A DNA stretch of 64,000 bases from Acidobacteriota bacterium (lineage in GTDB: Bacteria; Acidobacteriota; Terriglobia; Acidiferrales; UBA7541): the NCBI GenBank assembly GCA_013289955.1, contig JABCYZ010000006.1, positions 62,001 through 126,000 on the forward strand. The letters run 5' to 3'. Every line of letters begins with the position of its first letter. The first letter of the stretch is position 1. Below the pieces are notes generated by a model. It had not been told where the DNA came from. It saw nothing but the letters and a program-made list of their open reading frames with translations, and did no database searches. The position numbers and the translations under genes are program-made. Positions 28,374 to 31,389 of the stretch are shown here, piece after piece.

Positions 28374-28402
28374 TTGACTTTGAAACGAGCCCGGCTTATC
28401 AC
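28374..28402 (+). promoter_or_regulatory. Candidate sigma70-like promoter of the MgtE/NRAMP leader
   Basis: TTGACT - 17 nt - TATCAC. Confidence 0.4.
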
Positions 28403-28485: not shown

Positions 28486-28537
28486 GGAGTGGATTCTCTT
28501 CCGATGAGTGCGTCCAACGAACTCGAACCTGCTCGCT

Positions 28538-28665
28538 TCAGCGTGAGGCGATGCAGGGGGGCGAGGCTTCGGAAAGGCCATGCGGAAACGTCGCGCGAGG
28601 CAGAAAGTCTCCCGCAGGCGGTAGGGTGGGGAGGGTTCACTTCTGGCTAACGGTAAGTCCATTTT
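28538..28665 (+). ncRNA. Candidate divergent M-box (ykoK-type) Mg2+ riboswitch aptamer
   Basis: GUGAGGC ... AGGCCAUGCGGAAACGUCGCGCGAGGC ... CUGGCUAA resembles M-box core elements (GUGAGGC, GGCCACUG.., ACGUCGAGAGACGC, UGCUAAAG), upstream of an intrinsic terminator and Mg-type transport genes; not confirmed by covariance model. Confidence 0.42.
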
Positions 28666-28677
28666 TATGAGGTACTT

Positions 28678-28716
28678 GCCCGCAGCCGAGGCCATTTCGG
28701 TATGCGGGCTTTTTTT
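28678..28716 (+). terminator. Intrinsic terminator inside the leader of the MgtE-N/NRAMP operon (candidate expression platform)
   Basis: GCCCGCA GCCGA ggccat TTCGGTa TGCGGGC + T7. Confidence 0.75.
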
Positions 28717-28803: not shown

Positions 28804-30045
28804 ATGGAACTTTACGCTACAGAATTGATGGGCGCCCAAGCCTACGACGTGCAGGGTAACTTCGTCGGACGCGTGCGCGAATTTTTCATTGAGCCTGCGC
28901 AAGCGACAAACAGGCTATCGCATTTCCTTCTTTCGCGCGGCCGCTTCCAGCCGCTGATCGCCCGGCACGACCAGGTTGCGACTTTTGCGCCGGGAACGAT
29001 GCGGCTCAACGTCAGCGAGCGCGCTCTTCAGCTTTATGAACCGAACGAGTCGCTCCTGGCGGTGCGCAAGGATTTGATGGACCAGCAGATTATCGACACG
29101 CGCGGCCGCAAAGTCGTCCGGGTGAACGACGTTGATCTTACGGAGATGAAGACCAATGGAAACGTGGAGCTGCGTGTCACGCAAGTCGATGTGGGGCTGC
29201 CTGGCGCGGTGCGGAGGCTGCTGCAAGGTGTGGTTTCGCGGGGCATGATCCGCAAGCTGCAAAGCAGGCTGCCGCAAAGCGCGATTCGCTGGGAATTCGT
29301 GAATTTGATCGAATCCGACCCGCTGCGCCGGGTCAAGCTGCGCATCACGCACGAAAAACTCGAAGACCTGCATCCGGCGGACTTGGCCGAGATCATGGAA
29401 GATCTCTCGGCGGCGGAGCGGCAGGGAATTATCGCCTCGCTCGATGAAGAGACCGCCGCGGCTGTCCTGGCTGAGCTAGATGAACGGCTGACCACGCAGA
29501 TCGTCGAGAAGCTGGACCCCGAAAAGGCCGCCGACATTCTCGAAGAGATGGCACCCGATGCCGCCGCCGATCTTCTGGCTGATCTTCCCAAGGAGACTTC
29601 GGAAGAGTTGCTGGAAGAAATGCCTGGGCAGGAAGCCGATGAAGTGCGCGAGCTGCTCTCCTTCGATCCTTCGACGGCGGGCGGGATGATGAATACGGAA
29701 TTTGTATTTGTGGGGGAAGGATCCCGGCGCGAAGAGGTGCTCGGCTGGATCCGTGGCCAGGAATTGAATCTCGACCAGCTCGACACCATCGTGCTGCTCG
29801 ACGGCCGGGCGGAGTATTCCGGCACGGTGTCCGTGGCGCGTTTGCTGCTCGCCGCTCCGGAACAGAAGATGTCCGAGCTGCGAAGCGAGCCGCTGCTCAG
29901 CATTGCCGGAGATGCCGATGAGAAGGACGTTTTTGAGCTGTTCGACAAATACAATCTGCGGATGCTGACGGTGGTTGATGAGGAGAAGCGTCCTATCGGC
30001 ACCGTGACCGTGGACGACGTGGTTTCGCGGCTGGTAAAGAAATAA
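28804..30045 (+). CDS. PRC-barrel-like + MgtE N-terminal domain + CBS protein lacking the MgtE channel domain
   Basis: MELYATELMGAQAYDVQGNFVGRVREFFIEP; LHPADLAEIMEDLSAAERQGIIASLDEETAAAVLAELDE...EKAADILEEMAPDAAADLLADLP; CBS region ends LTVVDEEKRPIGTVTVDDVVSRLVKK with no TM domain. Confidence 0.9.
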   Translation: MELYATELMGAQAYDVQGNFVGRVREFFIEPAQATNRLSHFLLSRGRFQPLIARHDQVATFAPGTMRLNVSERALQLYEPNESLLAVRKDLMDQQIIDTRGRKVVRVNDVDLTEMKTNGNVELRVTQVDVGLPGAVRRLLQGVVSRGMIRKLQSRLPQSAIRWEFVNLIESDPLRRVKLRITHEKLEDLHPADLAEIMEDLSAAERQGIIASLDEETAAAVLAELDERLTTQIVEKLDPEKAADILEEMAPDAAADLLADLPKETSEELLEEMPGQEADEVRELLSFDPSTAGGMMNTEFVFVGEGSRREEVLGWIRGQELNLDQLDTIVLLDGRAEYSGTVSVARLLLAAPEQKMSELRSEPLLSIAGDADEKDVFELFDKYNLRMLTVVDEEKRPIGTVTVDDVVSRLVKK

Positions 30046-30069
30046 AAAGGAATCTGGCGGAAGCAGCGG

Positions 30070-31389
30070 ATGAACTGGCAAAGCCTCAAATCGAGCTTGG
30101 AAGGCCTGCAAACGCGCGGCGAAAATTTGCAGCAGAAGATTCGCGGCCTGCGGCGCCGTCTGACCCTGCTGCTGGCGGTTGTCGGGCCGGGGCTGATTAC
30201 TTCGAACGTCGACAACGACGCGGGCGGCATCGCGACGTATTCGCAAGCCGGCGCGCAGTACGGCTACGCGCTGCTGTGGTCGCTGATTCCCATGACCATC
30301 GCCCTCTACGTGACCGAAGAGATGTGCGCGCGCATGGGCGTGATCACCGGTAAAGGGCTCTCCGATCTGATTCGCGAAGAGTTCGGATTCCGCCCCACGT
30401 TTTTTGTGATGATCACGGGCTTCTTTGTTGACTTGGCGAACGTCGTTGCGGAATTTGCGGGCGTGGCCGCGTCCATGGAAATGTTTCACGTCAGCAGGTA
30501 CATCGCTGTTCCCATCGCCGCGATATTGGTTTGGATTCTGGTGCTTCGAGGTACATATCGCCAAGTCGAGGTCATCTTCCTGATTGCGTGCGGGTTTTAC
30601 GTCACCTACATCATTTCCGCAGTCCTGGCCAAACCGGACTGGCTGGAGGCTGCCAAGCATGTCGTCATTCCCAACCTTCAGTTCAATTCCGGCTATTTAC
30701 TGACGCTGACGGCGCTGGTTGGTACCACCATTGCGCCGTGGCAGTTCTTCTATCTTCAGGCGGGTTTTGTCGAGAAAAAAGTCGGGCCGAGGCAGTATCC
30801 GCAAGCGCGCGCTGACGTTTTGGTAGGCAGCATCAGCTGCATGGTCATCGTGTTTTTCATTATCGTGGCCACGGCCGCGACCCTGTATGTTTCCGGCCAG
30901 CGCGACATCACCGATGCGGTGCAGGCAGCCAGGGCATTGATTCCGTTGGCTGGGAAATGGGCCGGATTTACTTTCGCGTTTGGCTTGCTGAACGCCTCGC
31001 TCTTTGCGGCCACCATCCTGCCGCTCTCGACGGCGCATGTGATTTGCGAAGGGCTGGGATTTGAGGCGGGGATCGACCACAAGTTTAAGGATGCGAAAAT
31101 TTTCTACGGCCTGTATACGGTCCTGATTGCTGTGGGTGCGGGGATCATCCTGATTCCGCACGTACCGATCTGGAAGATTTTCATTTTTTCGCAGGTGGGG
31201 AACGGTATTTGGCTCCCCGTGGTGGTCATCTTTATTCTGCTTCTCGTCAACCGGCGCGATCTGATGGGCGAGCACGTGAACACGCTCACGTTTAATATCG
31301 TGGCCTGGGTCACGGCGATTGCCATGATTATCCTCACCCTCGTGCTGGTCTACACCTCGCTCTTCCAGACGCCGCCCCCGGCGGGCTGA
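30070..31389 (+). CDS. NRAMP-family divalent metal transporter, probably NRAMP-related Mg2+ type (NRMT-like)
   Basis: TM1 GPGLITSNVDNDAGGIATYSQAG, TM6 TALVGTTIAPWQFFYLQAGFVEKK; multiple hydrophobic segments. Confidence 0.92.
   Translation: MNWQSLKSSLEGLQTRGENLQQKIRGLRRRLTLLLAVVGPGLITSNVDNDAGGIATYSQAGAQYGYALLWSLIPMTIALYVTEEMCARMGVITGKGLSDLIREEFGFRPTFFVMITGFFVDLANVVAEFAGVAASMEMFHVSRYIAVPIAAILVWILVLRGTYRQVEVIFLIACGFYVTYIISAVLAKPDWLEAAKHVVIPNLQFNSGYLLTLTALVGTTIAPWQFFYLQAGFVEKKVGPRQYPQARADVLVGSISCMVIVFFIIVATAATLYVSGQRDITDAVQAARALIPLAGKWAGFTFAFGLLNASLFAATILPLSTAHVICEGLGFEAGIDHKFKDAKIFYGLYTVLIAVGAGIILIPHVPIWKIFIFSQVGNGIWLPVVVIFILLLVNRRDLMGEHVNTLTFNIVAWVTAIAMIILTLVLVYTSLFQTPPPAG

Follow-up and report, generated by a model that had tools for sequence, protein, structure and literature searches.

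What does the sensor of a magnesium channel do when the channel itself is missing, and when its gene stands directly before that of a transporter of another family? The question is raised by two adjoining genes in a stretch of 64,000 nucleotides (the window) from a soil bacterium of the Acidobacteriota (GenBank assembly GCA_013289955.1, contig JABCYZ010000006.1, positions 62,001 to 126,000 of the forward strand). The first gene encodes a relative of the cytosolic part of the Mg2+ channel MgtE, and the second a NRAMP-related transporter of the NRMT type. The favoured answer, held with moderate confidence, is that they belong to an operon for the uptake of Mg2+, and probably also of Mn2+, in which the NRMT is accompanied by a channel-less MgtE sensor partner and both are controlled by a leader-peptide attenuator.

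The gene pair itself has been known since Shin et al. 2014 (PMC4072509), and its role is poorly understood. Most NrmT loci in that work include a homologue of the MgtE cytosolic domain, some of them behind an M-box, and either feedback regulation or chaperoning by the MgtE-N-like protein was proposed; the role of the partner has been stated as open since then. The pairs described there (the Ca_c0685 operon of Clostridium acetobutylicum and ACP_2976/ACP_2977) share with the window an MgtE-N-like gene beside a member of the NRAMP outgroup. The Acidobacterium capsulatum pair ACP_2976/ACP_2977 is also acidobacterial and without an M-box (ACP_2977 is compared by its description). In contrast, a leader and terminator were not found described there, and the co-occurrence counts, the missing MgtE sites and the beta domains in tandem were worked out here. 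Novelty beyond the known pair rests on the leader.

The two genes are:

28804..30045, + strand: stand-alone MgtE-like regulatory protein with PRC barrel, second beta domain, MgtE_N and CBS pair, 413 aa (Pfam, fold, alignment)
30070..31389, + strand: NRMT-type NRAMP transporter, 439 aa (PF01566 E 5e-93; 7qia E 4e-100; tree)

Both open reading frames (ORFs) are present as an earlier note on this DNA had given them. Their close spacing also stands, with a gap of 24 bp where that note had counted 25. The genes share one reading frame and a lone TAA separates them. In all 63 related loci where both genes are readable, the partner gene lies directly 5' of the NRMT gene, with a median gap of 38 bp, frequently of 25 bp or less, and with a 4-bp overlap in three; these loci came from a scan that used the peptides of the window itself as seeds, and are mostly close relatives.

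The nature of the transporter can be read from its metal site, which is formed by motifs on transmembrane segments 1 and 6 (TM1 and TM6):

30217..30228, + strand: TM1 metal-site motif DAGG (D50-G53; alignment with orthologs)
30724..30735, + strand: TM6 metal-site motif TTIA (T219-A222), followed by PW (alignment with orthologs)

Although the protein is a NRAMP by Pfam, its TM1 reads NDAGG where canonical members have DPGN, and its TM6 reads GTTIAPW where they have GATVMPH. The earlier note had seen both DAGG and the Ala in place of the metal-binding Met, and both hold across 68 orthologs: the DAGG residues are kept in 65-68 of them, and in all 68 the Met is replaced by Ala and the following His by Trp. 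DAGG and TTIA correspond to the NRMT signature DxxG (TM1) with TxxA/T (TM6); the DxxG-TxxA signature was defined for NRMTs in PMC8806188. The best match in the PDB is the NRMT of Eggerthella lenta, EleNRMT (7qia, E 4e-100 vs 8e-30 for the DraNramp entries, some 70 orders of magnitude), which is also the best fold match (TM-score 0.91 by target length). In a maximum-likelihood tree of 53 NRAMPs the window protein groups with EleNRMT (support 92/79), and E. coli MntH, DraNramp and the MntH of the same genome fall on the other side of a split (100/99).

Residues for proton coupling are lost as well. The first TM6 His is Trp, the second is aligned with Gln and the TM3 Asp is replaced, while a Glu on TM3 and a Gln on TM10 are kept much as in EleNRMT. 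EleNRMT thus resembles the window protein in the DxxG-TxxA site, the Trp for the first TM6 His, the TM3 and TM10 residues and the fold; the two differ in sequence (about 41% identity), and EleNRMT was studied without a partner protein. It carries Mg2+ and Mn2+ without H+ coupling (PMC8806188). Metal-site signature, PDB ranking and tree together assign the transporter to the NRMTs, in agreement with the Mg-transporter-like character that the earlier note had suggested and with the phylogenetic placement that it had put forward as a check. The identity of a canonical Mn/Fe NRAMP is rejected on the same three grounds.

The partner protein is built from the following parts:

28807..28947, + strand: PRC-barrel domain, residues 2-48 (Pfam PF05239; in 46/47 aligned orthologs)
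29056..29298, + strand: family-specific beta domain, the second of the protein, residues 85-165 (highly conserved, also among distant partners; predicted beta structure)
29368..29670, + strand: MgtE_N superhelical domain, residues 189-289 (PF03448 E 7e-28; fold match to 2yvy)
29875..30036, + strand: second CBS repeat, residues 358-411 (Pfam; keeps D405, equivalent to MgtE D247, and loses D226 and D250)

This order, a PRC-barrel-like start followed by the MgtE superhelix and CBS region with no transmembrane domain, is as first noticed and is confirmed by Pfam. A Pfam search finds no MgtE membrane domain (PF01769) in the 413-aa protein, and the MgtE equivalog model covers only its cytosolic part there. 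In the predicted structure residues 1-165 fold into two beta domains, the second of which carries a motif, D-L-M-D-Q-Q-I-I-D..G.K-V-V-R-V-N-D (DLMDQQIID..GRKVVRVND in the window), that is kept in distant partners.

The partner has the MgtE_N and CBS pair fold of the MgtE cytosolic domain (2yvy, 2zy9). It was compared site by site with Thermus thermophilus MgtE, using the site definitions of PMC5882242 and PMC5529423. The acidic residues of sites Mg4 (D91 and D247) and Mg6 (D95) are kept, as D252, D405 and D256. The partner differs from the MgtE channel in having neither membrane domain nor plug helix, in its extra N-terminal beta domains, and in several other sites whose loss is weighed below.

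In the window's genome (6.5 Mb) no match to CorA was found, by a search that finds CorA in 14 of 14 genomes as a control, and neither an MgtE channel nor MgtA was found above cut-off. A weak PF01769 match (22.7 bits, below cut-off) was rejected as MgtE, and P-type ATPase matches far under the MgtA cut-off were rejected as MgtA. The genome encodes three NRAMPs: the NRMT of the window, a canonical MntH (L002, MDPGN...ATVMPH) and a third class (L004, DDDPSG...TTISPY). The last of these (G000:C5:101174-102412) has no partner gene in this genome.

A wider view is given by 159 Acidobacteriota genomes, 47 of which have this NRMT. MgtE channels occur in 8 of these 47 vs 81 of the other 112 (Fisher p ~1e-10, uncorrected for kinship), and CorA shows no comparable bias. 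CorA, the MgtE channel and MgtA are all missing in eleven NRMT genomes, the window's included. These distributions argue that the NRMT supplies Mg2+ in these bacteria, although other importers may exist. In genomes like the window's, where a NRMT is the sole visible Mg2+ importer, it would be the chief route by which common soil bacteria take up Mg2+.

The same genomes tie the partner to the transporter. A stand-alone MgtE_N protein is present in 47/47 NRMT genomes, even when unlinked: it is adjacent to the NRMT gene in 24, within 8 kb in 10 and elsewhere in 13. Among the matches listed for the other 112 genomes, from which a few weak ones were left out, 88 of 98 MgtE_N places lie in a full-length MgtE and 10 stand alone; nine of those ten adjoin a second NRAMP class. 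A class related to the third NRAMP above shows this arrangement in other Acidobacteriota (9 genomes; L123-L128). Co-occurrence and conserved arrangement support the view that the two genes form a functional module, as the earlier note had proposed.

The co-occurrence bears on a first alternative, in which the MgtE-like protein is a separate Mg2+/Mn2+ binding or adaptor protein (a buffer, a chaperone or a PRC scaffold) that is merely co-expressed with the transporter. The genes are not neighbours in the 13 genomes just mentioned, and the partner has lost the ATP site, the plug helix and one Mg site. Yet the tie holds even in unlinked genomes, and a general buffer would not account for it. The partner also had no effect when tested in Bacillus subtilis; however, that rescue test asked whether the partner helps and not whether it inhibits at high Mg2+. 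This alternative is considered unlikely.

How is the pair controlled? The DNA between an upstream CYTH-type gene and the pair is 75-88% conserved in about 25 loci, and the following elements can be recognized in it:

28374..28401, + strand: sigma70-like promoter, TTGACT, 16 bp, TTATCA (same layout before the genes of about 20 close orthologs; start site putative)
28504..28650, + strand: leader peptide ORF, 48 aa, MSASNELEPARFSVRRCRGARLRKGHAETSREAESLPQAVGWGGFTSG (ortholog scan, coding signature)
28645..28658, + strand: candidate antiterminator 5' arm, GGC, leader stop codon, GGTAAGT (can pair with 28674-28687)
28674..28687, + strand: candidate antiterminator 3' arm, ACTTGCC...GCC, which shares bases with the 5' arm of the terminator (alignment pairing)
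28679..28716, + strand: intrinsic terminator, stem CCCGC...GCGGG followed by T7 (paired in 91% of cells; the alignment keeps both stem and T-run)

The promoter consensus in the close ortholog leaders is TTGAC(A/T)...TTATCA. A conserved coding short ORF and an intrinsic terminator are both present, as in leader-peptide transcription attenuators. In close relatives the leader starts with MSxSNELEPGP (MSASNELEP... in the window), and elsewhere with MSESEELEPFP, MSYSLDQEPLP, MSTPSEHDPGP or ME..SSNSEPG, so that variants of an acidic-proline motif (ELEP, EHEP, NSEP) lie near the N-terminus. A mechanical scan required an ORF with an ATG start and a length of 25-75 codons, an acidic residue paired with Pro within residues 5-16, and a terminator that follows the stop at 25-90 nt; 48 of 62 ortholog loci contain such a leader. 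Shuffled sequences give a mean of 0.65 loci (maximum 3), or 1.4 (maximum 5) if the terminator region is kept. One otherwise conserved locus (L025) has no matching leader ORF, through sequencing error or decay.

Evidence for a coding role comes from diverged leaders. In pairs that are less than 60% identical in DNA, differences within the first 9 codons amount to 0.39/0.46/0.80 at the three codon positions, and their BLOSUM score is best in frame (1.8 vs 0.03 and -0.45). The codon-position differences and the in-frame score indicate that the start of the leader is under selection at the protein level. The antiterminator arms can pair in 22/22 aligned loci (slid controls 23-56%), in near-invariant columns that make covariation uninformative. 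In every aligned close relative the leader stop codon sits between the two parts of the candidate antiterminator arm (GGC...GGUAAGU / ACUUGCC...GCC).

These data also bear on a second alternative, that the conserved element works as RNA, either riboswitch-like or as a small RNA of its own, and not as a leader-peptide attenuator. The 3' block and the ORF ends are strongly conserved in nucleotides among close relatives, and the middle of the leader has no codon-position bias; an earlier codon test on close leaders, with no third-position excess, had likewise hinted at RNA conservation, and the near-invariant pairs leave covariation undecided between RNA and peptide. However, the diverged loci give a clear coding signature in the first 9 codons, the reading frame stays open across the variable middle in 48 loci, the stop codon falls at the antiterminator arm in all aligned close relatives, and no Rfam family matches the upstream element. 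An RNA device in place of a peptide is rated improbable, and is the least favoured of the alternatives.

The earlier note had mentioned M-box control of NRAMP-related genes in clostridia. There is no Rfam match in the window, M-box (RF00380) included, and an M-box or other Rfam element before the window pair was rejected for that reason. A relative does have one: on an Alicyclobacillus fastidiosus plasmid (L080 1910-2078), an M-box riboswitch (145 bits) and a terminator directly precede the pair, and its detection served as positive control. The M-box (ykoK) riboswitch is comparable to the window element in being a cis element with a terminator, in the same place before the Alicyclobacillus pair. 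The window element differs in having no M-box match and in encoding a peptide.

Position alone is insufficient to assign the leader to the pair, since the place of the CYTH-type gene is also conserved among close relatives. The assignment is supported instead by the terminator logic and by a single copy per genome. The 3' leader element occurs once in the window's genome and at most once in each genome of 18 congeners; of these 19 genomes 16 carry it, and 12 of 12 retrieved copies directly precede the MgtE-N gene. For operons of NRAMP genes or of Mg transport in Acidobacteriota, no report of a leader peptide was found in the literature searched, with subscription papers largely outside it. The leader and terminator before the NRMT pair thus appear to be a new element, no description having been found.

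Similar devices are known from other Mg2+ importers. The leader peptide MgtL, which precedes enterobacterial mgtA, is about 17 aa long. Its complete translation lets transcription stop, whereas drop-off of the ribosome at an EPDP motif at low Mg2+ allows mgtA to be expressed (PMC11282234). In MgtQ, before mgtCBR, Asp and Glu codons near the start play a related part (PMC8092293). The window leader is likewise a short ORF before a Mg2+ importer gene, with acidic residues near its N-terminus (and Pro, as in MgtL), and by the reading of its sequence finished translation is expected to turn the downstream gene off. Differences are also clear: the sequence is unrelated, the leader is 45-70 aa long vs 8 in MgtQ, an intrinsic terminator stands in place of the Rho site of MgtL or the masked ribosome binding site of MgtQ, and both the transporter family and the phylum are other ones.

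These parts suggest how the operon might work. A ribosome that completes the 48-aa leader would cover the antiterminator arm at the stop codon; the terminator would then form and turn the operon off. Early drop-off of the ribosome, for instance at the N-terminal acidic-proline motif at low Mg2+, would free the antiterminator and turn the operon on. The leader and terminator probably switch the pair on at low magnesium, with Mg2+ inferred as the signal. The NRMT, a NRAMP relative that lacks the proton-coupling residues, would act as a facilitator whose enlarged site takes up a divalent ion in hydrated form. The partner, a soluble protein of two beta domains (PRC and the second one) joined to the MgtE cytosolic sensor, would most likely be seated at the inner face of the NRMT. 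At high cytosolic Mg2+ it would fold up via the acidic sites of its N-domain and CBS pair (Mg4, Mg6), and import would slow.

A bolder version of this scheme is that the leader senses Mg2+ through ribosome drop-off at the acidic-proline motif and acts through the intrinsic terminator, convergent with MgtL and the M-box, while the channel-less MgtE sensor also inhibits the NRMT, giving two layers of Mg2+ feedback in one operon. This combination is tentative, and possible rather than probable. If the leader does respond to Mg2+, it would be a further independent invention of a Mg2+-responsive leader, as well as an in vivo readout of which metal matters to the operon.

Several points weigh against Mg2+ uptake under a channel-less sensor. 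The genome is 94% complete, so that an importer may have been overlooked, and in many leaders the acidic-proline motif is a single pair (NSEPG), a weaker one than the EPDP of MgtL. In the partner, site Mg5 is lost (D226N at N384, D250S at S408), D226N being one half of a mutation that disables this site in MgtE; the Mg7 residue E59 is Ala; the ATP-site residues Y170, R187, D188 and F227 are all replaced; and the protein ends where the plug helix would begin. An AlphaFold model of the pair as an 861-aa read-through chain (95 rows) has good domains (pLDDT 78, pTM 0.62); it came without inter-domain error, and therefore no interface is claimed from it. In the work of Shin et al., the A. capsulatum transporter rescued Mg uptake in B. 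subtilis only at millimolar Mg and Mn uptake fully, addition of the partner made no difference, and the C. acetobutylicum NrmTs functioned without one (PMC4072509).

Because the plug helix, the ATP site and Mg-site residues are lost, a simple transfer of the MgtE gate is unlikely. The earlier idea of a two-protein Mg2+ module with the MgtE gate acting in trans thus keeps its module and loses its simple gate, which the sole published test also leaves unsupported, co-expression having had no effect in B. subtilis. Docking onto the NRMT would probably occur through the partner's own family-specific beta domain (residues 85-165) instead of the MgtE plug helix. Co-occurrence in the 159 genomes, the kept and lost MgtE sites and this beta domain make the role of the partner directly testable.

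That sole published experiment also calls the Mg2+ specificity of the acidobacterial pair into question. Mn2+ is the centre of a third alternative, a module for the import of Mn2+ or mixed transition metals that carries mainly Mn2+ in vivo and whose MgtE-like partner senses Mn2+. Acp2977, the NrmT that A. capsulatum encodes beside the same neighbour, restored a B. subtilis mutant in Mn transport completely and the Mg mutant only in part, and EleNRMT carries Mn2+ too. In contrast, the genome already has a canonical MntH, yet classical Mg2+ importers go undetected; all 68 orthologs have Ala for the Met of the metal site; the partner retains Mg sites 4 and 6; and the Alicyclobacillus pair sits behind a Mg2+ riboswitch. 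A module mainly for Mn2+ is therefore rather doubtful, though less so than the other two alternatives, and Mg2+ uptake remains the preferred reading.

The pair is not restricted to Acidobacteriota. Bacillota, Actinomycetota and Gammaproteobacteria have it too, with either gene first, and it is carried by plasmids from Alicyclobacillus, Rhodococcus, Mycolicibacterium, Cellulomonas, Serratia and Citrobacter. On the plasmids of Citrobacter (L138 163-6224), Serratia (L083 1521-6147) and Cellulomonas (L135 1-5203), the pair has reversed order, and its neighbours are a regulator of the ArsR/SmtB type and a P-type ATPase for heavy metals, which suggests a role in metal-resistance cassettes. The Serratia neighbours are annotated as a HAD-IC P-type ATPase and a winged-helix regulator.

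A few loci show variations. The MgtE-N gene has apparent frameshifts in two otherwise conserved loci (L065, 2792-3859; L072, 2786-3724), through sequencing error or decay. A contig titled Betaproteobacteria (L013) carries an acidobacterial-type locus that is 90% identical, and is probably a mislabelled metagenome bin. In two genomes a CorA gene stands directly beside the NRMT or its partner (G119:C44:22210-24384, G120:C157:2593-5983). Finally, two loci (L133, G133:C30; L134, G087:C17) have a same-strand trio of MgtE_N protein, NRMT and a canonical-type NRAMP with a long C-terminal extension.

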